Virus record (IMG/VR): IMGVR_UViG_3300020074_003022
Span: 1-27,304 of that record
DNA length: 27,304 nucleotides
Source of the DNA: a virus
Strand: one strand, 5' to 3'
Shown: in pieces, positions 3,327-24,105 of the stretch
Position numbering within the stretch: the stretch's first letter is position 1
Layout: each line of letters starts with the position of its first letter
Translations under genes and position numbers: made by a program
Notes under the pieces: model-generated
Told to the model about the DNA's origin: nothing
Seen by the model: only the letters and a program-made list of their open reading frames with translations
The model's database searches: none

Positions 3327-3528
3327 CGGGCACCTCCTGGCAGGGACAGCCTTCGCCTTGGTATGGGTAGAACACGATGAGATGCCGGTAGGCGTGGGGG
3401 ATATGTCGATCACGCGCCCATGTACAGCGCCCGCGTGTCTCCGCCAACGGCCCCAAGCGGGACTCTGGTTTCCACCATCGACATTCCAGGCAAGAGGTGT
3501 TGGTTCCGGCGGGATGGTTCTCAGGCAC
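3319..3528 (-). CDS. Small Cys-rich protein in the lysis cassette, 69 aa
   Basis: Starts with GTG at 3528, directly behind AGAGGTGCCCG. This leader is almost the same as that of the endolysin gene, which supports this start over longer in-frame options. The 69 residues start MPENHPAGTNTSCLECRWW. They contain CLEC, a lone Cys (GRC) and CPC near the C-terminus, suggesting a small metal-binding or disulfide-linked protein. There is no clear membrane segment. The gene overlaps the flanking muramidase and endolysin genes by eight bases each, so a lysis-related role is possible but not shown. Confidence 0.65.
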   Translation of the reverse strand: MPENHPAGTNTSCLECRWWKPESRLGPLAETRGRCTWARDRHIPHAYRHLIVFYPYQGEGCPCQEVPDA

Positions 3529-6448: not shown

Positions 6449-7453
6449 CTACGCGCAGATGTCAGGCGGGGTGCCCGGAACGCCCGGCACGCCGTCCCAG
6501 GCCATCACCACATGGCCGAACTGGACGAACTCCATGTCCCCACTATCCGGGTGCGTGGACCCGTTCGGATTGCCCGTACTGCCAAAATACAGGTCCCGGA
6601 GTCGCCCGAAGGGACCTCTCCATCCTACCGTTGCGGAGACCAAGATGATCTCGGTCATGTTCCAGCCCAGCCCCCCGGTCTCGTTGGCATGCGTCTGGTT
6701 TTCCCCCAACATGGCCGCTCCATAGCCTAGCGTTGCCGCGTATGCCGTCACGGCAGTCCCGGCCAGCTTGGCGGTCCACGCGGCAGCGTCGTTGAGGTTG
6801 CTGTAGAGAGGCTGGTACGCCCCCACCACAGCGACGGGGTTGGCGTCCCAGGAGGCCGCGCCGATGAGGTCCACGGCCCGCTCGAAGTCGAAGAACCCCA
6901 CCCCGGAAGGCGAGGCGGCGAACGTACAGAACACCGTGCGGAAACATGTTCCGTCCGACGAGTACGCCGCGTTGAAACTCATGATCACATCGGAGGCAGT
7001 CCCGCCCAGCCAGTAGCCGCCCGTCGCGAAAGTCCCCGTGCGGATCACGACCTCACCGGCCGCCGTCGGAAGAGTCGTTGTCGAGCCCCCGGTGTAGGCT
7101 GTCGTGAACGAGTAGGAGGAGTAGATGATCTGATAGTTGTTCCCGTTGGTCCCTGCGACACCACACAGGCCGATGAGGACGTACATGGCCGGGTGCATGG
7201 CCACGGGAGCTCGCAGTACGATCCAGGACCGCGCCGTGCTCCCCGTGTTCCAGACGCACTTGGTGTAGCCATCCCAGAGGTCGGCATCTGCCACCGAGAC
7301 CCCATCGCAGGACCGGGCCACGGTCCAGCCAGCAGTCAGGAAGGCAGTCTTCCAGTTGTACATCATATACTGGTGGTTCGTGATTATGTTTCCCGTCGCC
7401 GTTCGACGGTACACCACTGCGGACCAGGTTTTCTCTTTGACTGGGATCGCCAC
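6449..7453 (-). CDS. Tail fibre/appendage-like protein, 334 aa
   Basis: Starts with GTG 7453 behind AGAGGAGAAGAAC. The protein is rich in Gly, Thr, Ser, Ala, Tyr and Trp with low charge, typical of beta-structured phage appendage proteins. It begins MAIPVKEKTWSAVVYRR and ends with a collagen-like GVPGVPGTPP segment. Features such as ARSWIVLRAP and YQIIYSSYSFTTAY recall uncharacterised phage virion proteins that contain sandwich domains. It sits among other fibre-like genes, so a receptor-binding or baseplate role is plausible, though unproven. Confidence 0.65.
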   Translation of the reverse strand: MAIPVKEKTWSAVVYRRTATGNIITNHQYMMYNWKTAFLTAGWTVARSCDGVSVADADLWDGYTKCVWNTGSTARSWIVLRAPVAMHPAMYVLIGLCGVAGTNGNNYQIIYSSYSFTTAYTGGSTTTLPTAAGEVVIRTGTFATGGYWLGGTASDVIMSFNAAYSSDGTCFRTVFCTFAASPSGVGFFDFERAVDLIGAASWDANPVAVVGAYQPLYSNLNDAAAWTAKLAGTAVTAYAATLGYGAAMLGENQTHANETGGLGWNMTEIILVSATVGWRGPFGRLRDLYFGSTGNPNGSTHPDSGDMEFVQFGHVVMAWDGVPGVPGTPPDICA

Positions 7454-7464
7454 GTTCTTCTCCT

Positions 7465-8406
7465 CTAGGCCAGGACCAGGCCGCCCCAACCCACATAGAT
7501 CTTATCCTCCGCTGCCCCGCCCACTCGTCGAACTATCCCCTCGAGCAGGTGCGCCCCGGCAGGGACGGCTGGGATCGTCACGGTCGTCTCGACGCCGAAG
7601 GTCCCGTTGTTGAGCGCCAGCGTCGTCACGAGGCTGCCGGCGGTCAGGTCGTACAGGTCCAGCTCGCCCGTGGCCGCGCCCGAGATTGCTCCCTCCGCGC
7701 GGAACTTCACCGTCGTGTAGGCATACTTCGTCCGGTCGATCAGCAACGTGCCGATCACCGTGGACAGCGTATCCGTGCTGGACTGATCGTTCACGATGGT
7801 GATTCTGAGGGTGGACACGTAGGCCAAGTCGGCCTTGTCCCCCTGCGCGGACGTGGCGAACTCGGCTGCGTCGCGCGTCACGATGTCTCCCGCCCCGGTG
7901 TGCGCCCCGATGGCGTGTGCGTCCGGGGGCCGCGCCGCACCTGCGGCATCGGTCCCCACGGCGGTCTGTGCCGTGGCCTGGTCGGCTGCGGCAAGCACGT
8001 CCGCTCCTGTCACGCCTGCTCCGTGGACACCCGCACCGGAGGCCGAAGCATGCCCTGCAGCGACAGGCTCGTCTCCGGCGGCGACGTCGCCGGCACCAGC
8101 TCCCACGTTGCGCGTGGCGGCATCCCCGAGGGCGAGGGTTGTCCGGCCGGCCGCCGCGTTCACGGCCTGGAGCAGGGAGGTTCCCACCCCGGTGATCCCC
8201 TGGATGTTGGCGGTCGGGATGGTGGGGATTTCCGTGCTGTTGAGCTTCGCGGCCATGTTCAGGGAAGCCACGCCCCCCGGCTGCCCCTTCATGGAGGTCA
8301 GGACCAGGGTGGCGTCCGTGATGATGGCCTGGAGCTCGGCGATGGAGTCGATGTCCGACGCCTTCAGGAAGCCGGAGACATCGAGGAGGGTATCTGCCCA
8401 GGGCAT
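7465..8406 (-). CDS. Tail fibre-like protein, 313 aa
   Basis: ATG 8406 follows TAGGAGGAACATCC. The N-terminal about 100 residues (MPWADTLLDVSGFLKASDI, then AAKLNSTEIPTIPTANIQGIT) have the repeated 'sIpaanItGv' wording typical of phage tail fibres. The middle is a low-complexity Ala/Gly/His repeat region (AAGHASASGAGVHGAG). The C-terminal about 110 residues form a beta-rich domain (RITIVNDQSSTDTLS to KIYVGWGGLVLA) that could be a receptor-binding or trimerisation tip. It is followed 11 bases later by the next fibre-like gene. Confidence 0.75.
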   Translation of the reverse strand: MPWADTLLDVSGFLKASDIDSIAELQAIITDATLVLTSMKGQPGGVASLNMAAKLNSTEIPTIPTANIQGITGVGTSLLQAVNAAAGRTTLALGDAATRNVGAGAGDVAAGDEPVAAGHASASGAGVHGAGVTGADVLAAADQATAQTAVGTDAAGAARPPDAHAIGAHTGAGDIVTRDAAEFATSAQGDKADLAYVSTLRITIVNDQSSTDTLSTVIGTLLIDRTKYAYTTVKFRAEGAISGAATGELDLYDLTAGSLVTTLALNNGTFGVETTVTIPAVPAGAHLLEGIVRRVGGAAEDKIYVGWGGLVLA

Positions 8407-8417
8407 GGATGTTCCTC

Positions 8418-8783
8418 CTACTCGATTCGCTTCTTGGAGACCCACACGTCCAGGTCGTTGGCCTGGCCGCCTCCGGTGCGGGCGTACTCGACCCAGACGT
8501 ACTCGTGCCCCGTGAGCGGCGTGTTCGACCCGGAGGAAAGCTCCCCGGCTCCAACGGCGATGGTAGCCACGATGGGCCACAGGGTCTGGGCGAGCTGGGT
8601 CTCATCCACGAGGGAAGCCCGCACGCGGACGTTCCCCGACCGACCCCCCAGCGCCGGGGCATAGGCCTGGATCGAGTAGATGTTATGCTGCCCGACGTGG
8701 ACGATGGGAGCGCTCTGGATGTCCCCAGAGGTATCCCCTCCGTCGATCACGTGCCCGCCGGTCTTGTACCCGAGCTTGGCCAT
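8418..8783 (-). CDS. Small beta-rich virion-type protein, 121 aa
   Basis: ATG 8783 follows GAGAGGAGATTCCCTG and overlaps the stop of the amidotransferase gene (TGATG). It begins MAKLGYKTGGHVIDGGDTSG. The composition is Gly/Ser/Thr/Val-rich with segments such as GNVRVRASLVDET and HEYVWVEYARTGGG, which fit a jelly-roll or Ig-like small appendage protein. Placed immediately before two larger fibre-like genes, it is probably a virion component. It could also be a fibre chaperone; no motif decides. Confidence 0.6.
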   Translation of the reverse strand: MAKLGYKTGGHVIDGGDTSGDIQSAPIVHVGQHNIYSIQAYAPALGGRSGNVRVRASLVDETQLAQTLWPIVATIAVGAGELSSGSNTPLTGHEYVWVEYARTGGGQANDLDVWVSKKRIE

Positions 8784-10615
8784 CAGGGAATCTCCTCTCG
8801 TAGCCGATCCCCATGGTACCCGGAAGGTTCCCTGGAGTCCACGTTCCCGTCCCGACTCGTCAGCCCCGAGCGCCAGGCCGAGAGCATCCGGTCCCGGAAC
8901 CAGGACCTGTCCCACGTCGGGGTCGAGGTCGAGGTCTGATGCCCGAGGCCGGAACCGTTCGTGGCTCGCGTCCAGCTCGAGGGGAGGGCCAGGCCTCGCT
9001 TGGTCTTCTCCTCGACGATCTCCCGGGGCACGCCCAGCCGGCGGGCTACCTCCCGGAGCACGTGCTTGCTCTCCACGGAGGTGATCTTGGCCTGCCAGGA
9101 GATGCGGGGGGAAAGCTCCAGCAACCGGTAGTCCAGGAACGGGGACCGGTTCTCGATGCTCCAGGCCATGGCCATGCGGTCGGCCATCCGGAGCAGGACC
9201 TGCATGGTCGTGTGGAAGTCCGTCCGGGCCATGCCGGAGATGAAGTCTCCCTGATGGATGCTGGCCCCGCCGTACTTCACGAGGAGCTCCCGGGCCAGGC
9301 ACTCGGTTCGATCGCCTCCCCGGTTGAGCATCCGGGTCATCCAGGCCCACGGGTCCCCGTGCGTCCGCTGGATCAGGGGCCTGTACTCGGCCAGGTGGGG
9401 ATCCATCTCCTTGCGCTGCTCCCAGTACAGGTCCCGGTACCGGGCGTACCCGCCGAAGAGCTCGTCGGCACCCTCCCCGGAAAGGGCGACCTTGATCCCG
9501 TCTGATCGCATCCGCTGGAACAGGAACCACTGGCAGCAGGCGGTCCAGGTCGCGGGCGTGTCCAGGTGCCGGGCGATGGACGGGAGCGCCTCGAGCATCT
9601 CGTCCCGGGAGAACCGGACGGGGATCACCTCGGCCCCCTGCGCCGCCGCGCGGGCCAGGGAGAGGTTGTCGATCTCCCCGGGGAAGTCCACGCAGTACAG
9701 GCCCTGGACGGGAATCCCCTGCATCCGGCAGACTTGGTAGATCAGGGCCGAGTCCAGGCCCCCGGAGAGCATGATCCCCACGGGGACCTCGGCCCGTGCC
9801 CGTGCCCTGACAGCATCCTGCAGGATGTCCTCGAGCAAGAGCACGGCCTGGGAGAAGGAGAGGCAGTCCCCCGGCTCACGGGCAACGGGGAGCTCCCACC
9901 AGGGGGTCTCCTCCCCCCGGCGGTCCTGCGACGAGAGCAGGAGGGAATGCCCGGGCAAGACCCTCCGGATGCCGGCCAGCGGGGTGGATCCTCGGAAGTC
10001 GAACTCCAGGCAGTCCATGTCCGGGCAGGAGGTCTCTTGCAGGGAGACCCCGAGTCCCTTCAGCCCGCACACGGTGGACGCCAGGAGGATCTCCCCTGGA
10101 TGACCCCCCGCGGCTCGGTAGAGGGGCTTCTCCCCGGCGCGGTCCCGCGCGGCGAAGACGCGCTCCTCGTGCTCATCGACCAGGATGAACGCCCACATGC
10201 CGTTCAGGCGGGTCAGGCAATCCACGCCCCAGGCTTTCCAGGCGCGGGCCAGGACCTCGGCATCGCACTGGGTGAGCCACGGGTCGTCGCCGGACAGGAC
10301 CTGACGGAGCTCGTCCAGGTTGTAGATCTCCCCGTTGTACGCCAGGGAAACCCCCAGGTACGGGAACCGGAACGGGACGGGGATCTCCCGCTGGTCCACG
10401 ATCTTGAGACGGGTCATGCCCAGGGTTACCCGGGCCCAGGAGAGCTGGATCTCCGCCTGCCCCTGCCCGTCCGGCCCCCGGTGCCTCTGGGCCACGCAGG
10501 AAGAGAGAGCCACCTGGGGGGAAGGTAGAGGTAGAGGTAGAGGCGAAGGTAGAGGTAGAGGTAGAGGATGCCCGTTCCCTTCATGTTCCTGAATACTTGC
10601 GAAGATCCCGCACAT
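8783..10615 (-). CDS. asnB-like: AsnB-family glutamine-dependent amidotransferase, 610 aa
   Basis: Belongs to the asparagine synthetase B family: glutamine hydrolysis feeds ammonia to an acyl-adenylate formed with ATP. The N-terminal Ntn domain has the nucleophile Cys2 (MCGIF), RHRGPDG at 44-50 and NGEIYN at 94-99. The synthetase domain has SGGLDS at 284-289 (PP-loop) and SGEGADELFGGY at 379-390. The start is fixed by Cys2. A Leu-Pro repeat insert lies at about 16-33 of the glutaminase domain. In polysaccharide gene clusters this family often amidates sugar acids rather than making free Asn; the neighbouring sulfo-, methyl- and glycosyltransferases favour that reading here. No Shine-Dalgarno lies near the start. 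Confidence 0.88.
   Translation of the reverse strand: MCGIFASIQEHEGNGHPLPLPLPSPLPLPLPSPQVALSSCVAQRHRGPDGQGQAEIQLSWARVTLGMTRLKIVDQREIPVPFRFPYLGVSLAYNGEIYNLDELRQVLSGDDPWLTQCDAEVLARAWKAWGVDCLTRLNGMWAFILVDEHEERVFAARDRAGEKPLYRAAGGHPGEILLASTVCGLKGLGVSLQETSCPDMDCLEFDFRGSTPLAGIRRVLPGHSLLLSSQDRRGEETPWWELPVAREPGDCLSFSQAVLLLEDILQDAVRARARAEVPVGIMLSGGLDSALIYQVCRMQGIPVQGLYCVDFPGEIDNLSLARAAAQGAEVIPVRFSRDEMLEALPSIARHLDTPATWTACCQWFLFQRMRSDGIKVALSGEGADELFGGYARYRDLYWEQRKEMDPHLAEYRPLIQRTHGDPWAWMTRMLNRGGDRTECLARELLVKYGGASIHQGDFISGMARTDFHTTMQVLLRMADRMAMAWSIENRSPFLDYRLLELSPRISWQAKITSVESKHVLREVARRLGVPREIVEEKTKRGLALPSSWTRATNGSGLGHQTSTSTPTWDRSWFRDRMLSAWRSGLTSRDGNVDSREPSGYHGDRLREEIP
10521..10568 (+). repeat. 24-bp tandem repeat, two copies, made of GGTAGA units
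   Basis: Two 24-base units (10521-10544 and 10545-10568), differing only at their last base, each contain three GGTAGA hexamers. They lie inside the amidotransferase gene and encode two copies of an eight-residue Leu-Pro/Ser-Pro unit. Copy-number changes would keep the frame. Confidence 0.9.
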
Positions 10616-10622
10616 GGAAAGG

Positions 10623-10651
10623 ATGATAGGGATTTCCTCGAAGAAGGACAA
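10623..10651 (-). promoter_or_regulatory. Candidate promoter of the amidotransferase gene
   Basis: On the minus strand, TTGTCC (10651-10646), a 17-bp spacer and TATCAT (10628-10623, five of six consensus). The -10 box ends seven bases before the ATG, so the transcript would be essentially leaderless. Confidence 0.45.
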
Positions 10652-10655
10652 GAAC

Positions 10656-11186
10656 TTACTTGACTGCCTCCACGTTGAGGGACATGAGCAGTCCGTGCTC
10701 CTTGTCCATGTAGGGAAGGTACGCCTGGGAGTAGTCGTCCAGGTCGGCATGCTCCGTGGTTCTCCAGTCGTAGCCATGGACCCGGGAGAACCCGGCCTGG
10801 AGCAAGAGCTCCTGGAGACTCACATGATCGAACACAATGTGATGGAAGTTGTACAGATAGGTTTGTCCCCCGAACAGGAGGCCCATCACGTCTTTCAGGG
10901 AGCCTCCTTGCACGTACCACCGGCAGATCGCCGCGAAGTCCGGGACGGCCAGGCGGAGGATGCCTCCCGTGCGAAGGATGCGGTGCCATTCCTGGAGGAC
11001 TCGAGGGACCTCCTGTCGGAGGAAGTGCTCCAGGACATGGCAGGCGTAGATCACTTCCACGGACTCGTCCTGGATCATGGGCAAGCTGTCGATGGAATGC
11101 CGGATCTGAATGTGAGGCAGGTCCAGGACGTCGATGTGGTCATACCCGGGGATGTATTTGGTTCCGCAGCCGAGGTGCAATTTCAT
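10656..11186 (-). CDS. Class I SAM-dependent methyltransferase, 176 aa
   Basis: Starts MKLHLGCGTKYIPGYDHID, the motif I (SAM-binding GxG loop) of class I methyltransferases of the Methyltransf_11/type-11 group often found in polysaccharide clusters. VIYACHVLEHF (motif IV region) and LRTGGILRLAVPDF (post-motif) follow in order. The acceptor is not predictable; a sugar or lipid-linked glycan is likely from context. The gene begins two bases after the sulfotransferase stop, with only a weak Shine-Dalgarno. Base composition here is lower in GC than in flanking genes (27 of 60 G+C at 10801-10860), suggesting recent acquisition. Confidence 0.8.
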   Translation of the reverse strand: MKLHLGCGTKYIPGYDHIDVLDLPHIQIRHSIDSLPMIQDESVEVIYACHVLEHFLRQEVPRVLQEWHRILRTGGILRLAVPDFAAICRWYVQGGSLKDVMGLLFGGQTYLYNFHHIVFDHVSLQELLLQAGFSRVHGYDWRTTEHADLDDYSQAYLPYMDKEHGLLMSLNVEAVK

Positions 11187-11188
11187 CT

Positions 11189-12097
11189 TTACAGTCTCGT
11201 GGTCCGTGCAATGGCGCTGCCATCAGGATTCCGTCCCAGGAAGGGGAGCAACTGTTGAATCTCGGGTCTGCCATGGAGAAAGGCACGGGCTTCCATGGGC
11301 ATTTCATCCAGGTAATCCGACCTCCGGGTTCCCTCTACGAGGCCACGTTCGTATTTGTATTTGAGGGGACCATTCCCCCCAATGAGATGGTGATCTGCCA
11401 GGTGCCATTGTAGCACATGGGGATCCCAGGGGAGGCCAAGCCATTCCAGGATGTCTCCGAGCGTGCCCTGCGTGTCCGTGAGTAAAGATTCGTATGGAAC
11501 CGAAATACACGGTATCCTTGGATTCTCCAGGAGGAGCGCCCTTGCCCTCCTATAGTATTCGCAGTAGATATCAACGCAGGTCAAGAACAAACGCAATGGC
11601 ATTTCGGCAACAGAGCCTCCCCCACGGGCGATGTTGCGTGCAGCCGAGGAGTACCAGGCGTGCGGTGCCTTGTGCAGTAAAATGAAAAACGCGCTCGTGG
11701 GCTGCCCTCGTGGAAGGAGCCATTGGTACCAGAAGAGACCTTTGCTCATGTCTACAATGAACGGCTTACGGAATGTCGAGGCAACTGCTGCCAAGAGTTT
11801 GTCGATGGGCTGGAAGCCGATCTCGTCCCAGTAGGGACAATACGCATCATGACAGCACTTGATATTACAGATGCTTGCGGCACCTGTAGAGAAGCCTATT
11901 CCTGCCTCTCTTGGATAGCTGGGCTCCTGCGGAGCCCGTAGCTTGCTGTAGCAGTACCACCATTCCAGTCCGCCCACGCTGCAGATTCGCTCGTGTGTGT
12001 CCAGCATGTAGGACAACACGGTGGCCCCGGACCATTCTTGCGCCAAGATCCCGACGAATTGCGTGCCCTGCGTGTCACTGCGGGATGCAGATGACAT
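11189..12097 (-). CDS. Sulfotransferase-family protein, 302 aa
   Basis: Resembles PAPS-dependent sulfotransferases. SGATVLSYMLDTHERI at about 23-38 fits the 5'-phosphosulfate loop followed by the usual 'LLxxHP' helix. HKAPHAWYSSAARN at about 142-155 fits the 3'-phosphate-binding segment, with Ser150/151. A later YESLLTDTQGTLGDILEWLGLP matches the family's C-terminal 'Y.eL..dP..tl..i..fLglp' pattern. A Cys cluster (C77, C81, C82, C87) is an unusual addition. It would transfer sulfate from PAPS to a glycan or protein Tyr. It overlaps the FkbM gene by 23 bases. Its GC content is low (29 of 60 at 11821-11880), unlike the genes further upstream. Confidence 0.72.
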   Translation of the reverse strand: MSSASRSDTQGTQFVGILAQEWSGATVLSYMLDTHERICSVGGLEWWYCYSKLRAPQEPSYPREAGIGFSTGAASICNIKCCHDAYCPYWDEIGFQPIDKLLAAVASTFRKPFIVDMSKGLFWYQWLLPRGQPTSAFFILLHKAPHAWYSSAARNIARGGGSVAEMPLRLFLTCVDIYCEYYRRARALLLENPRIPCISVPYESLLTDTQGTLGDILEWLGLPWDPHVLQWHLADHHLIGGNGPLKYKYERGLVEGTRRSDYLDEMPMEARAFLHGRPEIQQLLPFLGRNPDGSAIARTTRL

Positions 12098-12869
12098 TGA
12101 TGCTCCGCAGGTTCAGGTCCCATTGGGCTCGTATGCCCTCCGGGGTCAAGGCCTGACCGGACTCCTCGTCCTGGATCTGATAGCCTAGATAGGAGAGCAG
12201 GTCCACCAATGTGTCCACGTGTCGCGTGTTGTTAGGAATGTGCCCCAGGCCCACGGGGCGCATGGTGTATTCGCACAGTTCGAGGACCAGAACCGGCCGG
12301 AAGTGGAGGAGGGTACGGGTGGCACCCAGGATGGCACGGAGTTCGTAGCCGTCCACGTCGATCTTGATCAGATTCACACTGGGGAGCGACGGACTTCCCG
12401 CATGGTCGAAGCAGAGTCCGTCGATGGTCACGAACTGGAGGTCCCGTGGGGCATGGAGGACACGTGCACCTTGCACGGGCCAACTGAATCCGAAGCCCAG
12501 GTCTCCCTTGTGCGTCCTGGCCATCCAGTCTGCCCCGGCCTGGATATCCTGAACGTTCACGCACTGATTCAGACGCAGGTGCTCCCGGAGGACCTGCATG
12601 GGTTCTTCCATGGGCTCGAGGGCAATCACGCGGCCGGTCGCGCCGACCAGCGAAGAGAACAACACGGTGTAGTACCCGATGTTGGCGCCCACGTCGAGGC
12701 AGACCCAGCCCGGCTGGATGATCCGCCGGACTGCGGCCGTGGTCGGGTGCTCCCAGCCTCCCGGATGGTTCTGGATCGAGAGGTCGATGAGCTGATCAGG
12801 ATGCAACCACCAGCGGAACCCGTGCTTTTCGACGACTTGCCTTCCCTGGAGGAATCCGGTGTCAGGCAT
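12075..12869 (-). CDS. FkbM-family methyltransferase, 264 aa
   Basis: FkbM-family enzymes O-methylate sugars or other hydroxyls using SAM. The diagnostic SAM loop LDVGANIGYYTVLF lies at 58-71, followed by GRVIALEPMEEPMQVL. The second family hallmark, NLIKIDVDGYELRAILGA, comes near 165-182. Length is typical. ATG 12869 is preceded by GAGGTCCTCTC. It lies ten bases after the glycosyltransferase gene and overlaps the sulfotransferase start, so these genes are clearly cotranscribed. Together with the sulfotransferase it points to tailoring of a glycan. Confidence 0.88.
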   Translation of the reverse strand: MPDTGFLQGRQVVEKHGFRWWLHPDQLIDLSIQNHPGGWEHPTTAAVRRIIQPGWVCLDVGANIGYYTVLFSSLVGATGRVIALEPMEEPMQVLREHLRLNQCVNVQDIQAGADWMARTHKGDLGFGFSWPVQGARVLHAPRDLQFVTIDGLCFDHAGSPSLPSVNLIKIDVDGYELRAILGATRTLLHFRPVLVLELCEYTMRPVGLGHIPNNTRHVDTLVDLLSYLGYQIQDEESGQALTPEGIRAQWDLNLRSINVICIPQ

Positions 12870-12878
12870 GAGAGGACC

Positions 12879-14078
12879 TCACTCGTTCTGGAAGCGCTCG
12901 TGTGGAAATCGATCTTTGTAATTCGCGCAGGCGCGGGCTACTGCCTGAGGAAGTGTGTATTCAGCGAGGAACTCCCTTGCCTTCCTTGCTGCGGAGCGCA
13001 GAAGTCGGGCCAGATCGGGGCCCGGCATGCGCCGGGCCTCTCGTACAATGGCGAGGAGGTTTGCCGTGGTCCCGTCGAAAGGCAAGTAGTGCTCGCCTGG
13101 TACGAAGCCGAGGGGCTTCAGCTCCTGATGCCGGTCGTGGAGAATCTGCACCACGCCGCAGGCTGGTAGGTCCACGAAGCGCGTGTTGAGTAATCCGCTC
13201 TGCTGCAAGTTCACGCCACACAGGCAGCGCTGGTAGAGCCGGCTCACCGGTCCTCCAGGAGAGCTGCCTCGCTCAGGGAGCTCTCCATCACGCATGCCCA
13301 CGCCATGGAGGGCGATGCGCAGGTCTCCTTGCTCCTTGGGCATGCCGTTCAGGTCGGAAATGACAGTGCTCCGGACAGGATTTCCTCCTCCTGCGTATCC
13401 GACGAAGCAGAGATCCCAGTCGTAGTCTCCTACGAGGACCCGTGCAATCTTGTCCTCCACAGCGTTTCCGGACTTGTCGTAGGCCTCCGGGAGACCGACC
13501 ACGTGGCCTGACCCGAATGGATACACACGAGGGCATCCCTGTGCCTTGTACATGGCCTCGGTCATGGCTCCAGAAGTGTAGTCCCAGACCAGCATTGCCA
13601 CGCAGGCCGCATCGGCGTATGGAGCCACGGGGAAGGTCTTTGCCTCAGAGGAACCGGGGCAGTCATCTCCCGTGGCGATGATGTTCAGGCAGCCCAGCTC
13701 GCGGACCCGGCGAAGGACCTCCGGATAGCACTGGAAAGGACCCTGCCATGTGATCACGTCCGTCAGGGGATCGGCCAGGATCTGCAGGAAGGAATCAACT
13801 ACACGAGGGTCAGGAGTCTTCCGGTTGTCGATCCATCCAGGGGGCACCGGGAGCGCCGAGACGTCCGTGATTCCAGCATGGACGTAGGGGTAATAGGCAG
13901 GGACGTACCGGTTCGTGAAGACCACCCGGATCCCCTGAACGTCGTACACTTCCGTCCACCGTTTGGACAGGATTTCGGAAAAGTCCAGGTCTGCTGTCTC
14001 TGGCCATTTCCCCCAGAGACCCCAGTGATGGACCACGATGGTCTGGGACAGCCGGAGCGTGGGAAGGTGCGTCGTCAT
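12879..14078 (-). CDS. CgeB-like GT-B glycosyltransferase, 399 aa
   Basis: ATG 14078 lies ten bases after AGGAGG; an in-frame ATG nine codons upstream has less support. The C-terminal half contains DLCFVGYAGGG, LYQRCLCGVNLQQSGLLNTRFVDLPACG and a following VVQILHDR. This 'N..r.fE.paCG' pattern is typical of CgeB/glycosyl-transferase group 1 (GT4-like) proteins, where the nucleotide-sugar site lies. The N-terminal Rossmann-like half (TIVVHHWGLWGKW, LNIIATGDDCPG) would bind the acceptor. The donor sugar is unknown. It lies between FkbM and methyltransferase genes in the cassette. Confidence 0.75.
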   Translation of the reverse strand: MTTHLPTLRLSQTIVVHHWGLWGKWPETADLDFSEILSKRWTEVYDVQGIRVVFTNRYVPAYYPYVHAGITDVSALPVPPGWIDNRKTPDPRVVDSFLQILADPLTDVITWQGPFQCYPEVLRRVRELGCLNIIATGDDCPGSSEAKTFPVAPYADAACVAMLVWDYTSGAMTEAMYKAQGCPRVYPFGSGHVVGLPEAYDKSGNAVEDKIARVLVGDYDWDLCFVGYAGGGNPVRSTVISDLNGMPKEQGDLRIALHGVGMRDGELPERGSSPGGPVSRLYQRCLCGVNLQQSGLLNTRFVDLPACGVVQILHDRHQELKPLGFVPGEHYLPFDGTTANLLAIVREARRMPGPDLARLLRSAARKAREFLAEYTLPQAVARACANYKDRFPHERFQNE

Positions 14079-14111
14079 GGAGCAGGAACCTCCTGTCGCA
14101 GCCACCGGAGG

Positions 14112-15026
14112 TCACTCCTTTCCAGGCATAGTGGCTCGGAATCCACGGACGCTCACAGGGAACTCTCCGGTCCGGTCCACCTGGTACCCGGCCTCGGCGA
14201 ACCAGCCCCGGACTTCCTCCGGGGTGTGCCAGGACCTGTACTCGGGGGAGTGCCAGTCCATGGTGTCGGAGATGCAGGCGGAGTCGTCCTCCTGATTGGA
14301 GACCCGCAGGATCTGCTGGAGGGCTCCCCATTCCTTGTTGTAGGCGTCCCGCACGCGGGGGGCCAGTCGCTGGAAGATCTCGTACAGCCGCTGCGGGGGC
14401 ACGCCCTTGGTGATCTCGTGGAACATCTCCAGGACGGGGAGCCACCGGTCGTCGGAGACGTGCTTGGTGTAGACCCAGACGGCCAGGGACTCTCGAGGAA
14501 TCTTGGCCAGGACCCGGAAGGCACCGGCCGGGTCCGGGGTGTGGTGCAGGACGCCGATGGACAGGGCCATGTCCACGGACCCGGGGGCCAGGTAGGGCCG
14601 CGTGAGGTCGGCCCGGATCAGGGTGACGCGGTCCTGCTGGATGGCCTCCGCGAGGTTCTCCCGGGCAGCTTGAATCCCCGTGGGAGAGCAGTCCACGCCC
14701 ACGACGTGCTTGGCCCCCCATGCCAGGAGCACCTGGATGAACCGGCCCACGCCACAGCCGGCGTCCAGGATGGTTTTCCCATCGACGTCTTTGGGCTCCC
14801 AGCCCGTCTTCATTCGGAGGTGCTGCTCCGTCTGGGCCTGGGGCCGGGGATGGTTCAGCCAGCGGGTGTCGAACCCGTCGTCGCTGTCTTCCGTGAGGCA
14901 GACGACCTTGTCCTTCAGCGACCACGCGCCCTTGGAGCCCGGGCAGCTCGGAGTCGCGCACTGGATGCCCTTGCCCACCCGCTTGAGGGGCTGGGAGCAG
15001 AGGGGGCACAGGATGTCCTTGAACAT
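14112..15026 (-). CDS. SAM methyltransferase with N-terminal zinc ribbon, 304 aa
   Basis: ATG 15026 follows GGGAGGCGAAAGACC. Residues 7-28 form a zinc-ribbon (C7, C10, C23, C28), as in Trm112-like heads fused to methyltransferases. ILDAGCGVGRFIQVL (motif I) then gives the SAM-binding loop, with VVGVDCSPTGI (motif II) and MALSIGVLHHTPDP (motif IV region) in the expected order. A long helical C-terminal part resembles methyltransferases of polysaccharide and lipid pathways. Substrate unknown. It is separated from the next methyltransferase gene by 17 bases. Confidence 0.82.
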   Translation of the reverse strand: MFKDILCPLCSQPLKRVGKGIQCATPSCPGSKGAWSLKDKVVCLTEDSDDGFDTRWLNHPRPQAQTEQHLRMKTGWEPKDVDGKTILDAGCGVGRFIQVLLAWGAKHVVGVDCSPTGIQAARENLAEAIQQDRVTLIRADLTRPYLAPGSVDMALSIGVLHHTPDPAGAFRVLAKIPRESLAVWVYTKHVSDDRWLPVLEMFHEITKGVPPQRLYEIFQRLAPRVRDAYNKEWGALQQILRVSNQEDDSACISDTMDWHSPEYRSWHTPEEVRGWFAEAGYQVDRTGEFPVSVRGFRATMPGKE

Positions 15027-15043
15027 GGTCTTTCGCCTCCCGG

Positions 15044-15655
15044 TCACTCGAGGAGAAGCAGGACGCCGAAGTTGACGTCCTGCATCTGGTGGAACAGCAA
15101 GGGCAGCTCGAGGCGCTCGTGCACGTCGTTCTGCCCGTCGGACGTGTAGATCTGCACGCCCCGGATGTCGTGGTGCAAGCACAGCAGGAGGATCAGGGCC
15201 TTGATCTCCTGGGGGGAATACTCCCGGATGTGGTGCGGGTTGGCCCCCCGGCAGACGTTCCAGTTGGGCGTGGAGAAGAAGGCCCCCCGCTTGGCCACCC
15301 GGAGCAGGTGCCGCAGGAACAGGATGTCGTTCGCCACGTGCTCGACGACGTCCACGGCCAGGACCCAATCCCAGGACCCCCCGGGAATGGCGGAGATGTC
15401 CGTGTTCTTCACCGACTCGTGGAGCGGAGCGATGTCGATGCCAGAGGAGGCGAACCCCGCCTCCTGAAGGATGCGAACGCCGTACCCGTCGGATGCCCCC
15501 ACGTCCAGGACGTGCGGGCCCATCTCCCGAGCCGCTTCCAGCTCCTTGGCCAGGAACTGATACCAGTGCTTCTGGAACTGGTGGGATGCCCCTTCCAACC
15601 GGTACTCCAGGGGCATCGTGTGGAGGTCCTGCTGGAAGTTGGCGCTGCGTGGCAT
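15044..15655 (-). CDS. Class I SAM-dependent methyltransferase, 203 aa
   Basis: Motif I is VLDVGASDGYGVRIL, followed by SGIDIAPLHESV (acidic end of strand 2) and WDWVLAVDVVEHV (motif IV region), the layout of Methyltransf_11/23-type enzymes. LRVAKRGAFFSTPNW is the post-methyl strand. ATG 15655 lies behind a 9-bp direct repeat rather than a clear Shine-Dalgarno, so translation may be coupled to the upstream glycosyltransferase 25 bases away. The substrate cannot be predicted; the setting suggests glycan methylation. Confidence 0.8.
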   Translation of the reverse strand: MPRSANFQQDLHTMPLEYRLEGASHQFQKHWYQFLAKELEAAREMGPHVLDVGASDGYGVRILQEAGFASSGIDIAPLHESVKNTDISAIPGGSWDWVLAVDVVEHVANDILFLRHLLRVAKRGAFFSTPNWNVCRGANPHHIREYSPQEIKALILLLCLHHDIRGVQIYTSDGQNDVHERLELPLLFHQMQDVNFGVLLLLE

Positions 15656-15661
15656 GCTCGT

Positions 15662-15679
15662 CTGTCCTGCCTGTCCTGC
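15662..15679 (+). repeat. 9-bp direct repeat, two copies, in an intergenic gap
   Basis: CTGTCCTGC occurs twice without spacing and fills almost all of the 24-base gap between the tandem glycosyltransferase stop and the methyltransferase start. On the coding strand it reads GCAGGACAG twice and replaces a normal Shine-Dalgarno. Confidence 0.8.
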
Positions 15680-17779
15680 CTACGTGTTCCAGGCTTTTTG
15701 CAGGAAATCCCAGTATCGATCGGCCCAGGCGTCCCAGCTCCAGCGCTTCTGGATCTCCTCCCGGTTGATCTCGCCCATGGCGCGGACCCGCGCCGGATCC
15801 TTCTTGAGCTCCAGGATGGCCTGGGCAAGGGCTTCCCGGGTGCGATCGGGAAGGATCACGATGCCCGTGTCTCCCAGCTCGCGGATCTGGCTCTCCTGGA
15901 TCTCCCGGTGGTTCCCGCAGTCCGTGGTGATCAAGGCCTGGCCGCTCGCCATAGCCTCTGTCGTACTGTTACTCGCACCCTCGTACAGAGACATACACAG
16001 GCACACATTGGCCTGCAGGTAGAACCGGGGCATTTCCTCGAAGGAGAGCTTCTTGATGTTGTACTCGGCGTACTCCAGCTTGACCTTGGCCGCTTCACAG
16101 GCGGGCCGGATGATCGAGTGGAAGCCCTTCACATCCTTGCCGTCGGGGCTGAAGTGCTTGGCGTTCCCGTTCCAGGAGCAGACGATCTCCCCTTGGACGG
16201 GGGTCATCTCGGGGTGCCGGCGCATGTTGACCGGGTTGGTCAGGTACACGACGTTGGGGCATCGCTCCTGGAGCTCCTCGAAGTTCTTCCAGGTCACGAC
16301 GTGGAAGGCCCGGTACTGGTTCACGATCTGGAACTCCAGCTCTCCGGGTGGCTCGGGCCGCTCGGGCCAGAACCAGGTTGCCCGGAGGGAGCCCACGGTC
16401 CGGTTCCAGGGAAGGAGCCGGTCGATGCCCCAGCGGTGGTACACCGAGAACACGCCATCCTGCCGCTGCATGTCCGGGACGAACCCCGTGCGCTGGTAGT
16501 CGGCGATCATCCAGTGCTCGAAGCGTGCCCGGTCCCGGAGGTACTCGGCCAGGTCGAGCATGTTCCGGCGGAAGGCCCAGTCCGGCTGGTCCGAGATCAG
16601 GAGAGCACGGGGAATCCCATCCACGGGAAGTACCGGGCGGGGGAAGCGGATGTCGGAGATTTCCAGGAGAGTTTTCTCCCGAGGTCTCTTCCCTATGGAT
16701 ACCTGCGTGGGTGCAGGTATGGGCTCTGGTACAGGAAGATCCTGGATTTGAAGTGTCTCTGGTCTCGAGGAGAGAGCTTCGGGTTCTCGGATGGGAGCGG
16801 GAATCCTCTGGATGTGCCTCTGGGGGACCACGATGGGGACTTGCCGGCCGCCGGAGAGGGCGGCTCGTTGGAGGAGCCAGCGGAAGGTCTGCCTCCAGAC
16901 CTCGGCCTTGATGTTCCAGTCGTGCTGTTCGGCAGCCTTCCGGGCCAGGGCACCCACCTGGGACAGGGTTCCCGGGGAGGCCTCTTTCAGGATGCGGAGC
17001 CGCTCGGCGAGAGCCTCGACCTCTCGGGGGATGATCCAGCCGTTGGCGCCGGACTGGATCAGCTTGGGGACCAGGCCCACCGGGGTGGAAACCACGGGTT
17101 TTCCGCAGGACATGGCCTCGAGCACGGGGTTGGGCGTGCCTTCCTCTTCGGACATGCAGACGTAGACGGAGATCTCCCGGTAGAACTCGTGCATCCGCTC
17201 GTGCGGCCAGTCCGCGCCCTCGGCCGCGTCCAGGTAGGCCAGCTCCACCTTGGCCTGCTTGCAGGCCTCCTTGATCAAGGCCAGGCCTTTGCCCCGCTCG
17301 GGCGCCCCGGGGATCACCGCCGCCGAATTGCCCGTCCAGCCCACGATGAACTTGGTGGGGAATGCCTGGGGCGGGAACAGCACCGTGTCCACGCCATCCT
17401 CGAGGATGAAGATCTCCAGCTCCCGCGTCTCCGTGGGGAACTCCGACCGGATCGCCTCCCGGAACGCTTCGTTGGCGACCCCCAGGGCCGTGGCCTGCTT
17501 CAGGGTTAGGGCGAACTGCTTCCGGGAATCCCCGGAGCTCCTCCAGGACCAAGCGTCGTACACGCAGGGCAGGCACGCCCGCGCCTTCAGGGTGGCCTGC
17601 AGCCGGAGGGCAAAGCCCCACCAGAGCGCCGCCACGATGTCGCAGGGACCTCGAACGAACTCGAGGTGGACTCGGGAGTCAAGCTGGAACTCGTCCTGAA
17701 GCCGCTGGACGAGGGCCTTGCCGATGTTCGAGAAGCTCCAACCCTGACGCTCGAAGGCAATGGCTACCGTGGGTCTCAT
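15680..17779 (-). CDS. Tandem two-domain GT4 glycosyltransferase, 699 aa
   Basis: Two GT-B/GT4 units in one chain. The first (about 1-330) has GWTGNSA, then the EX7E nucleotide-sugar motif in EEEGTPNPVLEAMSCGKPVV. The second (about 415-699) has CSWNGNAKHF and EX7E in YEGASNSTTEAMASGQALI. A Pro-rich linker (IPAPIREPEA, PVPEPIPAPTQ) joins them. It could add two sugars in sequence, or one unit may serve acceptor binding. The donor is unknown. ATG 17779 has a modest Shine-Dalgarno, and a good promoter lies just upstream, making this the first gene of the glycan cassette. Confidence 0.85.
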   Translation of the reverse strand: MRPTVAIAFERQGWSFSNIGKALVQRLQDEFQLDSRVHLEFVRGPCDIVAALWWGFALRLQATLKARACLPCVYDAWSWRSSGDSRKQFALTLKQATALGVANEAFREAIRSEFPTETRELEIFILEDGVDTVLFPPQAFPTKFIVGWTGNSAAVIPGAPERGKGLALIKEACKQAKVELAYLDAAEGADWPHERMHEFYREISVYVCMSEEEGTPNPVLEAMSCGKPVVSTPVGLVPKLIQSGANGWIIPREVEALAERLRILKEASPGTLSQVGALARKAAEQHDWNIKAEVWRQTFRWLLQRAALSGGRQVPIVVPQRHIQRIPAPIREPEALSSRPETLQIQDLPVPEPIPAPTQVSIGKRPREKTLLEISDIRFPRPVLPVDGIPRALLISDQPDWAFRRNMLDLAEYLRDRARFEHWMIADYQRTGFVPDMQRQDGVFSVYHRWGIDRLLPWNRTVGSLRATWFWPERPEPPGELEFQIVNQYRAFHVVTWKNFEELQERCPNVVYLTNPVNMRRHPEMTPVQGEIVCSWNGNAKHFSPDGKDVKGFHSIIRPACEAAKVKLEYAEYNIKKLSFEEMPRFYLQANVCLCMSLYEGASNSTTEAMASGQALITTDCGNHREIQESQIRELGDTGIVILPDRTREALAQAILELKKDPARVRAMGEINREEIQKRWSWDAWADRYWDFLQKAWNT

Positions 17780-18392: not shown

Positions 18393-18764
18393 ATGCCTCG
18401 AGCCGCGCAAGACGATCCCCTCCAGCCCCATCGGGCGCACGCCGCGCAGGAGCTCGGCCAGTTCCTGGCTGCCATCCGGACGCGGGCGGGCCTGACCCTC
18501 GCCGACCTGGCCCAGCGGCTGGGCTACGGCGTTTCCTACGTCAGCCTCATCGAGCACGGCCAGCGTGTCCCGCCCTGGCACATGCTCTTGGCCTGGCTCC
18601 GGCAGTCCCCCGGAGAACCCCCCCTGCACTACGGCGTTGCCCTCTGGCTCCGCACGCACCAGGGGCCGGGCATCCCCTGGGTCGTGCAGGCGGAGCCAAG
18701 GGACGCTCGCCTGCTTCAGCTCGCAGGGGTCTTCCTCCAGGGAAACGCCCCCTCGTCCAAGTAG
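18393..18764 (+). CDS. XRE-family helix-turn-helix regulator, 123 aa
   Basis: Residues about 18-70 form a Cro/CI-type HTH: LGQFLAAIRTRAGLTLADLAQRLGYGVSYVSLIEHGQRVPP reads as helix 1, the turn and recognition helix, and the typical 'S.iE.G.r.P' ending (quoted here as a span, positions 21-61). The C-terminal half (HYGVALWLRTHQGPGIPW onward) shows no protease or dimerisation signature. It probably binds operators in this intergenic hub. Its 3' end overlaps the convergent winged-helix-like gene by 49 bases. ATG 18393 has only a weak GGAT Shine-Dalgarno. Confidence 0.82.
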   Translation: MPRAAQDDPLQPHRAHAAQELGQFLAAIRTRAGLTLADLAQRLGYGVSYVSLIEHGQRVPPWHMLLAWLRQSPGEPPLHYGVALWLRTHQGPGIPWVVQAEPRDARLLQLAGVFLQGNAPSSK

Positions 18765-20144: not shown

Positions 20145-22088
20145 ATGTCCGACATTGACGCACAGCATCCCCCCGTGAGTCTTCCCGGGCCATTGCAGGC
20201 TGCTCTGAAGGCGGCTACCGGAGAAGGGAATGGAGAGGACAAGACCCGCGCGGACGGGTCTTCCGCTCCTGCCACGGGGGATCGGCCCGCCTTTGAGGTG
20301 GGCTGGCTTTCCATCACTTCTCCGACGGGGAGGCAGCTCGACACGGGAGTGGAGGGCTCGGTCCTGTTCGGCGGGCTGGACGTGGAGGAGCAGCTCTCCA
20401 CGGGCGATCCGTACCTGGAGCCCCCGGAGAACGTGGACGAGGCGTACAAGCTCTACCGACTGTCCGTCTACCTGTCCGGGATCGTGGACGCGCTGTGCGT
20501 GAACGTGTACGCGGCTGGCCTGGTGTTCACGCCCCGGCTTCCCTTGAGCCAGCCCCAGGCGATCACGCCCCGGATCCGGGCCTCCCTGGAGCTCCGGAAG
20601 TCCGGGGAGGTCCTGGGGGATACCCCGGAGGTATCCGACGAGGAAGTGGACGCGGAGATCAAGAAGCTCACTTCCCGCGCGTACCAGGAGGCCGTGTACC
20701 TGGAAGGCTTCTTGTCCCGATGCTGCCCGGACATGAGCTTCCTGGAGCTGGGCTGGCAGACCGGCCTGGATCTGGAAGTGAGCGGGAACGCCTACTGGGA
20801 AGTCCTGCGGGATACCCAGGGAAGGCCCGCCCGGTTCGTCTGGGTCCCGGCGTCCACGGTCCGCGCGCAGACGCAGGACCCGACCCTGGTGGTGACGTCC
20901 CGGATCTGCCAGCGGAACGCCCTGGACTGGTCTCGGGAAGTGCAGCCCCGGCGGTTCCGTCCCTACCTCCAGATCAATCCCTCGACGGGGCAGATCCTGG
21001 CCCGGTTCAAGGAGTACGGGGATCCCCGGGTGATGTCCCGGACGACCGGCCGGTACTACAAGGACATGGAAGAGTTCCAGGCCTCGGACAAGGAGAGGTA
21101 CGAGGACGCCACGGGGGTCGAGCATCACTACCTGCCGGCCAACGAGCTGCTCCACTTCCGGCTGCCCTACGCCGGGAGCCATGTGTACGGGCGCGGCAGG
21201 TGGGGCGGGAGCTACCCCAGCCTGCAAGGGACTCGGGACCTGGACGAGCTGAACAAGCGGGTCGTGACCGACCAGGAGATCCCGCAGATGATCATGTCCA
21301 TCTGTGGAGGGCATCCCGGAGCCATGTCAGCCGCCGTCAAGCGGTTCCAGGAACAGATCGCCGACCGCAAGAAGAAGGGGGAACGCGGGATCTGGATCAT
21401 CCACGCCTACGGGAGGGATACCACCCCGGGTGTCGCTGCGCAGACCCCGACCGTGGAGTGGAAGGAAACCAAGCAGGCGCAGACCGACGATGCCCTGGGT
21501 CTGCAGTACAAGAAGGCCAGCTACTTCGACGCTCGCCTGGGCTACCGCATCTCCCGAATGGCCCTCGGGGACGACGCCGACCTGAACAAGGCCACGGCCA
21601 TGCTGTCCCTGCGGCAGACCGAGGAGCAAGTGCACGACCCTCGACGGGACCTGATGGCCAGCACGCTGAACACCCTGGTCCTGCCCGAGCTGGGCATCCA
21701 GGTGGTCCGGGCCAAGTTCCTGAGCCGGCCCCCCAAGGACCCGACCGAGCTGGCCAACATCACCAAGATCTTCTCGGAGATCGGCCTGACCCCCGACGAG
21801 TCGCGGGAGATCGCCGGGGAGATCCTTGGCCGGGACTACAAGGACCTCGCCGGCGCCTGGTCCCGCATCCCCAGCCGGATCCTCACGGCCATCCTCCAGA
21901 CCAAGAACCATGTCACGGCCGCCGCCCTCCTGGGCGCGGAAGGAAGTGGAGACCTGCTTCCTGCTCTCCAGGAAGCGCTTCGCCAGGAGTTCCTGTCAGG
22001 GAAGGAATCAGAACGTACACCTCGAGAAGAAGTACCACCCCAAGAAGGATCGCACGAGGATCCGGAAGAGAAAGAGGCTGGATCGTGA
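20145..22088 (+). CDS. Phage portal protein, 647 aa
   Basis: Forms the dodecameric ring through which DNA enters the capsid. About 60 N-terminal residues are low-complexity. The region from VDEAYKLYRLSVYLSGIVDALCVNVY (about 98-123) resembles the start of PBSX-family portals. LELGWQTGLDLEVSGNAYWEVLRD, the 'vlgNayve' part, follows, then the HHYLPANELLHFRLPYAGSHVYG segment (all spans, given by position). GYRISRMALGDDADLNKATA is the 'ppellG' analogue before the stem helices. The C-terminal tail is Glu/Arg-rich. ATG 20145 follows GGGGAGATTCCAC. No terminase gene lies upstream, which is unusual for this position. Confidence 0.85.
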   Translation: MSDIDAQHPPVSLPGPLQAALKAATGEGNGEDKTRADGSSAPATGDRPAFEVGWLSITSPTGRQLDTGVEGSVLFGGLDVEEQLSTGDPYLEPPENVDEAYKLYRLSVYLSGIVDALCVNVYAAGLVFTPRLPLSQPQAITPRIRASLELRKSGEVLGDTPEVSDEEVDAEIKKLTSRAYQEAVYLEGFLSRCCPDMSFLELGWQTGLDLEVSGNAYWEVLRDTQGRPARFVWVPASTVRAQTQDPTLVVTSRICQRNALDWSREVQPRRFRPYLQINPSTGQILARFKEYGDPRVMSRTTGRYYKDMEEFQASDKERYEDATGVEHHYLPANELLHFRLPYAGSHVYGRGRWGGSYPSLQGTRDLDELNKRVVTDQEIPQMIMSICGGHPGAMSAAVKRFQEQIADRKKKGERGIWIIHAYGRDTTPGVAAQTPTVEWKETKQAQTDDALGLQYKKASYFDARLGYRISRMALGDDADLNKATAMLSLRQTEEQVHDPRRDLMASTLNTLVLPELGIQVVRAKFLSRPPKDPTELANITKIFSEIGLTPDESREIAGEILGRDYKDLAGAWSRIPSRILTAILQTKNHVTAAALLGAEGSGDLLPALQEALRQEFLSGKESERTPREEVPPQEGSHEDPEEKEAGS

Positions 22089-23055: not shown

Positions 23056-24105
23056 ATGACCGAAGCTGAGAAGATCAAGTCCCTCGTGAACGCTATCCAG
23101 TGGCGGGACAACCCCGAATACTGGTCCACCGAAGAGCTCGTCATGGTCTGGCGGGATCTGCACACCAACTTCGGGGACAAGCCCAACGCGGTGGCCGAGG
23201 AGCTCGAGCAGAAGATCTCCATTGCCGCCAGCCAGCGAGGCCTTCCCAACCGATACAAGGACAAGCTGTCCAAGGACGCCGGGACCCAGCTCACGGATAT
23301 CCCCGCGCCCACCATCCGGGAGGTCATGGCCTACCTGGACCCGATCGCCCTGGATTCCCGCGCGGTGAACCTCGTTCAGAGCACGGACCAGGGGCCCGTC
23401 TACGTCGAGGTCCGGGCTTCTCTCCTCCAGCCCCTGGTCCAGGAGATCATCCGGGCCGTCAACCGGTTCATGCCCCCGGGCGTCACGGTCCTCCGCCTGC
23501 CCAACGCGAAGAAGGGCACCTTCGTCGAGACCGCCTCGGTCTACTCCCTCGCCCTCCAGAAGACCTACGGCTGGTCCGAGGTTTCCACCTGGGACGCCGT
23601 CGTGAAGGATGTCCGGGGGCAGGCGCAGGACGCCTCCCGGGTCTTCAAGCAGTATGATCCCCTGGCTCTCCCGCTGACCGTGGTGAAGGTCTCCGAGGAC
23701 GACAAGCGCATCATCACCGCCTGCATCCTCCGCCCGGGCGTCGTGGACAAGACCGTGGCCAACCCGGACGGCAGCGCCACGGGCGCCGCCGGGGACGTCT
23801 ACGACGAGGGGGAGGTCTGGAAGGCCATGTGCTGGTACATGGAGCACTGCCGGGACGTGGGCGTGCACCACTCCGTGGACGGCGGCTACGCCGTGACCGA
23901 CGACGACATCGTCCTCCTCGAGAACTGGCAGGAGCGCCAGGGCTGGAAGACCGACCGGGGTGAGATCAAGCTCGGCGACTGGATGCAGACCCACAAGGTG
24001 CACAACGACAAGATCTGGGCCGACATCAAGGCCGGCAAGCTCACCGGCTGGTCCGTGGGCATGAACATGCAGTACCGGATCGAGGAGATAGCCCAGGAAG
24101 AGTAG
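23056..24105 (+). CDS. xkdF-like: XkdF-type putative prohead protease with extra N-terminal region, 349 aa
   Basis: The C-terminal part (about 215-342) matches the pattern of XkdF, the PBSX-type putative phage serine protease. RIITACILRPGVVDK is followed by DEGEVWKAMCWYMEH, HHSVDGGY (H271/H272), IVLLENW, LGDWMQTHKVHNDKIWADIKAG and TGWSVGM (S333), the last being the 'tGfSigg' motif. The likely job is to cleave scaffold and capsid during head maturation. The first about 205 residues are not part of the usual domain and are unrecognised. The protein stops soon after TGWSVGM, where relatives normally continue into a 'sLVdrgAN' segment; that segment appears at the start of the next gene. Confidence 0.75.
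   Translation: MTEAEKIKSLVNAIQWRDNPEYWSTEELVMVWRDLHTNFGDKPNAVAEELEQKISIAASQRGLPNRYKDKLSKDAGTQLTDIPAPTIREVMAYLDPIALDSRAVNLVQSTDQGPVYVEVRASLLQPLVQEIIRAVNRFMPPGVTVLRLPNAKKGTFVETASVYSLALQKTYGWSEVSTWDAVVKDVRGQAQDASRVFKQYDPLALPLTVVKVSEDDKRIITACILRPGVVDKTVANPDGSATGAAGDVYDEGEVWKAMCWYMEHCRDVGVHHSVDGGYAVTDDDIVLLENWQERQGWKTDRGEIKLGDWMQTHKVHNDKIWADIKAGKLTGWSVGMNMQYRIEEIAQEE

Follow-up and report, generated by a model that had tools for sequence, protein, structure and literature searches.

The DNA analyzed in this work (hereinafter, the window) corresponds to an entire IMG/VR virus record of 27.3 kb, whose genes were called by ORF, codon-position GC, and Pfam analysis. Its minus strand harbors, between positions 8783 and 17779, a cassette of eight intact and consecutive enzyme genes, all of which exceed the curated cut-off of one or more Pfam families: a tandem GT4 glycosyltransferase (GT4x2), the class-I SAM methyltransferases MT1, MT2, and MT3, a CgeB-like glycosyltransferase, an FkbM-family methyltransferase, a PAPS-type sulfotransferase (ST), and an AsnB-type amide synthetase (Table 1). 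An earlier note, made from the letters of the window alone, had described the same eight genes on one strand; all of them were found where it had placed them, except that three starts were moved inwards (AsnB to 10615, CgeB to 14078, and MT2 to 15026). The corrected AsnB start reads MCGIF, in which Cys2 is the nucleophile. The gaps among the eight genes range from only -23 to 40 nt, so that the cassette reads as one operon, and the GC content drops to 0.56-0.62 in its middle (0.559 in the sulfotransferase gene).

Table 1. Features of the window, listed by their position relative to the cassette.
Feature	Coordinates	Strand	Evidence and remarks
Second downstream gene	6449..7453	-	Fibre-like by position and composition only, sequence read by eye; no Pfam match, and no PHROG match for a slightly longer ORF
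Fibre-like gene	7465..8406	-	Weak match to PHROG 1446 (minor tail protein, 6.6e-5); fibre repeats of the GDAATRNVG type recognized by eye
sm8.4, 121 aa	8418..8783	-	Virion-like by position; start codon overlaps AsnB stop (TGATG)
AsnB-type glutamine-dependent amide synthetase, 610 aa	8783..10615	-	Asn_synthase 1.4e-61 and GATase_7 2.9e-26; core gene
MT1 SAM methyltransferase	10656..11186	-	Methyltransf_11 7e-9
PAPS-type sulfotransferase (ST)	11189..12097	-	Sulfotransfer_3 1.3e-10
FkbM-family methyltransferase	12075..12869	-	PF05050 2.2e-15; TIGR01444 74.5 bits (cut-off 37.7)
CgeB-like glycosyltransferase	12879..14078	-	Glyco_trans_1_2 6.2e-8
MT2 SAM methyltransferase	14112..15026	-	Methyltransf_11 1.3e-15; core gene
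MT3 class-I SAM methyltransferase	15044..15655	-	Methyltransf_23 1.6e-8
GT4x2 tandem GT4 glycosyltransferase, 699 aa	15680..17779	-	Glyco_trans_1_4 (Pfam) 5e-32, two GT4 stretches; core gene
small17.9, 113 aa	17896..18237	-	Lies just ahead of the cassette; putative virion protein, by position
Helix-turn-helix regulator	18393..18764	+	HTH_31 1.3e-13; between the diverging operons
Portal protein	20145..22088	+	PHROG 12 portal 5.9e-14
Head maturation protease, XkdF type	23056..24105	+	PF14550 1.2e-12
Major capsid protein	25235..26182	+	Matches PHROG 1623 (virion structural protein, 1.3e-43) and, by tblastn, annotated major capsid proteins

The cassette shares its strand with virion-type genes and overlaps sm8.4 by one base, in agreement with the previous reading of it as a phage cassette for a tailored glycan. 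The claim that fibres are encoded just downstream on the same strand holds for the position; a fibre identity is suggested by a weak PHROG match for the first of these genes. The regulator, portal, protease, and capsid genes are transcribed divergently from the cassette. Possible lysis genes were also noticed on the minus strand at 2784-3824 and 3521-3979, the former with a weak endolysin/VanY match and the latter being an overlapping lysozyme-like ORF recognized by eye.

A separate contig, IMGVR_UViG_3300020222_002989 (38.4 kb; G001), overlaps the window at 99.9% identity and carries the cassette without any difference, which makes a misassembly unlikely. It lengthens the head side with head-tail adaptor, tail tube, and tape-measure genes, and a third contig (G002) runs on to the baseplate wedge. 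The few differences between the window and G001 in the main overlap fall in or near the capsid genes (window 25.2-26.7 kb). A diverged copy was found in G007, a phage contig of 157,287 bp that is collinear with the window, G001, and G002 at roughly 27-49% protein identity. It harbors, at the same site and in the same orientation, small17.9, GT4x2, MT3, MT2, CgeB, ST, FkbM, MT1, and AsnB, with two extra ORFs and with ST and FkbM swapped in comparison with the window; most of the eight enzymes share 37-50% protein identity with their counterparts, the sulfotransferase being lower. A gene set repeated in this way, in G001 and G007, is well outside chance. In the same contig (L118-L125), DnaK-like and sliding-clamp-like genes were seen, by eye only, at 40761-42614 and 53189-54277, the latter of which might help in identifying the host.

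Enzymes encoded by the cassette

The AsnB of the window belongs to the glutamine-dependent AsnB superfamily: it keeps the glutaminase-site Cys2, Arg, Asn, Glu, and Asp and the SGGLDS ATP-pyrophosphatase motif, and its TIGR01536 asparagine synthase match reaches 327.9 bits (cut-off 267.1); it is also distantly similar to lasso-peptide cyclases. The Thr322 and Arg325 residues of E. coli AsnB, a motif with a role in the aspartate site (PMC5775275), are replaced in all five cassette AsnBs according to a MAFFT alignment, with W and C in the window and W and V or L in the relatives. The window enzyme thus lacks the pair that marks an asparagine synthetase proper and, since the aspartate-site residues are replaced, aspartate is an unlikely substrate, as far as the alignment allows us to judge. 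Moreover, only the synthetase domain is left in the AsnBs of G006 (L108:12309-13271) and G007 (L121:11141-12283), and neither record was found to encode a GATase_7 domain elsewhere. This would imply that another amine may be used; that is, the enzyme may join free ammonia or a different amine rather than transfer glutamine ammonia, and "amide-forming" is preferred here to "amidotransferase". The AsnB-type assignment of the earlier note therefore stands, while its term "amidated" is less certain. The window protein also has a low-complexity insertion near its N terminus, PLPLPLPSPLPLPLPSP (residues about 21-39; window 10500-10555), absent from the relatives.

GT4x2 carries the EX7E-type motifs EGTPNPVLE and EGASNSTTE. 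The N-terminal segment of MT2 is Cys-rich and zinc-ribbon-like; the protein is 45-48% identical to its relatives in G003, G004, G006, and G007, and the best solved relative of its profile is the D-glucose O-methyltransferase 6uv6 (9.6e-15). MT3 has relatives in G007 and in G003/G005, MT1 in G006 (62%) and G007 (50%), the CgeB-like glycosyltransferase in G006 and G007 (37-38%), and FkbM, whose domain membership follows from the curated cut-off (Table 1), in G007 (38%). The assignment of ST as a PAPS sulfotransferase relies on a Sulfotransfer_3 match over the cut-off, on an SG-x-T-x-L segment near the N terminus that is kept in the G006 and G007 relatives, and on a fold search with a weak, low-confidence AlphaFold model, whose matches were sulfotransferases, with tyrosylprotein sulfotransferases ranking first. 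None of the eight enzymes has TM-like segments according to a simple hydropathy analysis, and no membrane, lipid-carrier, flippase, polymerase, or export gene was seen in the cassette.

Phylogenetic distribution of the cassette and variability of its site

The search for the same gene set in other phage genomes, which the earlier note had proposed as a check, retrieved the full set from G007 and a core of it from G003/G005, G004, and G006. These relatives were found by scanning IMG/VR with AsnB and GT4x2 profiles, the first AsnB profile being partly seeded with INPHARED AsnB matches; probing IMG/VR with the single AsnB, GT4x2, MT1, and portal proteins retrieved the near-identical contig only. 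GT4x2, whose relatives occur in G003/G005, G004, G006, G007, and G008, together with MT2 and AsnB represents the core common to every complete cassette, with 32-56% conservation and catalytic motifs kept. The remaining content differs, as follows. G003 and G005 are the same virus, with a baseplate wedge and a P2-type tail-collar fibre gene, the latter followed by GT4x2, MT3, a radical SAM gene, MT2, an ORF, AsnB, and a weakly tail-like gene. In G004, which also has relatives of the capsid, adaptor, and tail genes of the window phage, GT4x2, MT2, two radical SAM genes, a methyltransferase, an epimerase, and AsnB lie between the capsid and adaptor genes. G006 has a capsid gene and a 95-aa ORF, then GT4x2, CgeB, MT2, MT1, ST, a radical SAM gene, and AsnB; its GT4x2 (L108:6120-7803) is split over two overlapping frames, owing to either a sequencing error or a true frameshift. 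The G008 contig shows small17.9 and GT4x2, which run beyond its end. The radical SAM genes, some with SPASM (L109:9929-10879, L103:11251-12327, L104:3-764, and L108:11236-12321), do not occur in the window or G007. All relatives have the cassette among virion genes, and in G007 and G008 it is divergent from the portal gene and beside small17.9. The cassette is not confined to this contig: several other phage lineages have relatives of it that hold the core in common and differ in their tailoring genes.

In a FastTree phylogeny of the synthetase domain only, which took in other fetched viral AsnBs, the AsnBs of the five cassettes fall into a single clade (support 1.0), in which G006 groups with G007. 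In contrast, the capsid protein of G006 does not significantly resemble its counterparts in the window or in G007, which suggests that the cassette may have been exchanged between phage types. No isolated phage searched in INPHARED has the gene set: tblastn retrieved no relative of GT4x2, CgeB, ST, MT1, or small17.9, and one weak partial match only for MT2. Apart from that of Streptomyces phage TurkishDelight, discussed below, the INPHARED AsnB matches come from unannotated records, several with flanks that look bacterial by eye, and they were not counted as phage cassettes.

The site itself was surveyed in 79 further portal relatives, of which 43 reach 4 kb or more beyond the portal match on its upstream side. 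Small17.9 is present in four of these 43, G007 and G008 among them, and the same four have an adjoining GT4 gene, so that wherever either gene is present at this site both are (4/4); the phages with this pair include the nearest portal relatives of the window, so the co-occurrence partly reflects shared ancestry, and a Fisher value, being blind to kinship, is no measure of its significance. The small gene precedes GT4 at the same site in G007, G008, L131, and L134, as in the window, and different enzymes follow it in the window, G007, L131 (GT4 genes), and L134. The last has small17.9 and a relative of sm8.4 (35%) at the two ends of the equivalent locus, with another filling, that is, a large GT4-containing protein and two epimerases; fibre-like genes were seen by eye in the equivalent arm of L132. 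Variable glycan genes thus occupy a fixed site among fibre or other virion genes, as in host-recognition clusters and, given that the small genes are kept while the filling differs, the site looks like a virion-surface arm where glycan genes turn over. For small17.9 there was no PHROG or Pfam match, and G003, G004, and G006 have no recognized relative of it; its AlphaFold model was too weak for a structure search, and its role as the glycan acceptor is conjectured from where it lies and from its company with GT4 genes.

Possible roles of the cassette and comparison with known systems

We consider it somewhat better than an even bet (probability about 0.55) that the cassette would be a virion-directed module for glycan decoration, making a methylated, sulfated, amide-bearing glycan. 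The gene identities, the catalytic motifs, the phage context, the conservation, the single AsnB clade, and the differing structural modules on which this reading is built are direct observations, and the phage-encoded glycosyltransferases by which virion glycosylation systems are recognized are present. We infer the substrates, the acceptor, the order of the steps, the timing of expression, and the benefit as follows. The soluble glycosyltransferases (tandem GT4 and CgeB-like) would build a short cytoplasmic glycan on a phage structural protein from host nucleotide sugars, small17.9 being the best candidate acceptor and fibres or capsid the alternatives; FkbM and the other methyltransferases would cap the sugars with O-methyl groups, the sulfotransferase would contribute sulfate from PAPS, and the AsnB-type enzyme would adenylate a carboxylate (of a uronic acid or a protein side chain), leading to an amide. 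The decorated surface might alter adsorption, stability, or recognition, and such an effect could explain why the core persists while the tailoring genes are swapped. A bolder scenario is offered only tentatively: the cassette would be a horizontally exchanged island whose acceptor is the dedicated small virion protein at its head, and a repurposed AsnB-type amide ligase, sometimes without a glutaminase domain, would attach an amide-linked group to either glycan or protein, so that the phages would wear a sulfated and methylated coat that can be swapped.

The earlier note had left three targets side by side, that is, fibres, capsid, and host surface. The last represents the main alternative, albeit a rather doubtful one: the infecting phage would alter the O-antigen, capsule, or peptidoglycan precursors of its host, and thereby keep out rival phages or prevent re-adsorption to debris. 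The glycosyltransferases of the pelagimyophage host-recognition cluster are read in this way, with late action on the host surface proposed (PMC7029224), and a position among structural genes also fits late genes of this kind. Furthermore, AsnB-type enzymes can act cytoplasmically on peptidoglycan precursors, and Lactobacillus casei asnH mutants are phage-resistant (PMC3885529). However, the lack of membrane-spanning and lipid-carrier enzymes, flippase, and polymerase argues against it (the membrane-bound glycosyltransferase and flippase of gtr-type serotype conversion were not found by simple hydropathy), as do the small protein genes that stay at both ends of the locus while the enzymes change. 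The location, the lack of TM-like segments, the missing lipid-carrier and export genes, and the kinship of MT2 with sugar O-methyltransferases would favor the cytoplasmic glycosylation of a virion protein. Two further points weigh against that preferred reading, since small17.9 is a putative virion protein without a PHROG match and with a weak model, and the radical SAM genes of three relatives (G003/G005, G004, and G006) could perform a chemistry other than glycan tailoring. The latter, together with the resemblance of AsnB to lasso-peptide cyclases and the tyrosylprotein sulfotransferases that lead the fold matches of the weak ST model, would suit a RiPP-like tailoring of a peptide or small molecule, in which AsnB, radical SAM, ST, and methyltransferases would modify a peptide or virion polypeptide directly and glycosylation would be one step. 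We regard this as unlikely, because GT4 is among the three constant genes, FkbM and the sugar O-methyltransferase kinship point to glycans, and neither a precursor-peptide pattern nor an export gene was noted.

That the cassette would glycosylate and decorate modified bases in phage DNA, as a protection from restriction, appears quite unlikely. Phage glycosyltransferases placing diverse glycans on DNA are known (Pyle et al. 2024, as reported in PMC12619734), a groundwater study suspects sulfotransferase-linked nucleotide modification (PMC10829341), and G005 and G007 have C5 DNA methylase genes; yet the cassette lies in structural modules, away from replication genes, no thymidylate-synthase-fold hydroxymethylase was found in nine incomplete records, including the 157-kb G007, by a search whose positive controls worked, and a search run without a positive control gave no Tet/JBP match. 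Plain asparagine supply for phage protein synthesis, with incidental neighbors, would account for the TIGR01536 match but not for the aspartate-site replacements in five of five cassette AsnBs, nor for the company of GT4 and MT2 in every complete cassette; it is very improbable, and we rejected it. The idea of misassembled or passing host DNA, which had been named as a possible refutation, was also discarded as hardly credible: the fall in GC content speaks for it, but the cassette is identical in G001, diverged yet collinear in G007, and conserved in its core, with motifs kept, in other contigs, and scans of 84,980 species genomes with the MT2 profile and CgeB, seeded by short peptide patterns and thus able to miss relatives, retrieved no relative.

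In line with the earlier note, a phage system with this combination does not seem to have been described: our literature search for phage together with FkbM, glycosyltransferase, and AsnB or sulfotransferase found no published one, nor did we find a description of amide, sulfate, and methyl chemistry on phage particles. Taken one by one, the elements are known: glycosylated phage virions, fibre genes accompanied by glycosyltransferases or by FkbM, and an AsnB gene in a phage. The pelagimyophage host-recognition cluster likewise is a variable region with glycosyltransferases among tail-fibre genes, but it is GT8-rich, is read as O-chain modification, and is described without mention of AsnB, FkbM, or methyltransferases (PMC7029224). 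Sinorhizobium phage phi3LM21 has an FkbM gene right after two same-strand tail-fibre genes; however, it is a single gene, with no glycosyltransferase or AsnB annotated beside it. In Streptomyces phage TurkishDelight, gp123-125 (L005:6673-10101, at the genome end) include an AsnB-like gene between two methyltransferase genes, but no glycosyltransferase or sulfotransferase is annotated there and the AsnB is about 30% identical over part of its length; being an isolated phage, it offers a tractable test case. Chloroviruses, prasinoviruses, and mimivirus, with autonomous glycosylation, encode glycosyltransferases and methyltransferases, and prasinoviruses also asparagine synthase and FkbM genes (PMC4691112, PMC5371798); unlike the phages considered here, they infect eukaryotic hosts, their asparagine synthase is discussed as amino-acid metabolism, and a shared cassette is not shown. 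Phage DNA glycan hypermodification, in the same account of Pyle et al. 2024 (PMC12619734), resembles the cassette in that viral glycosyltransferases build diverse glycans, but differs in that no hydroxymethylpyrimidine gene was found here by the thymidylate-synthase-fold search.

A close parallel to our proposal is that of mycobacteriophages, whose phage-encoded glycosyltransferases act on the capsid and tail tube (Freeman et al. 2023, as reported in PMC10877033 and PMC12619734), so that the virion is the target in both cases; the function is demonstrated there and predicted here. Glycoproteins were also reported in phage XacN1 virions (PMC5852040). The novelty appears to lie in the combination of these elements, in a conserved core common to phages whose structural modules differ, and in a site headed by a conserved small gene and, in the window and L134, closed by a second one. 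A further outcome is a family of AsnB-like enzymes whose acceptor site is altered and some of whose members naturally lack the glutaminase domain. Since the locus, the core set, and a candidate acceptor are concrete, the benefit of phage sugar coats can be tested by cloning about 10 kb. If the proposal is true, several phage groups would own an interchangeable kit of surface chemistry, comparable to the O-antigen clusters of bacteria.
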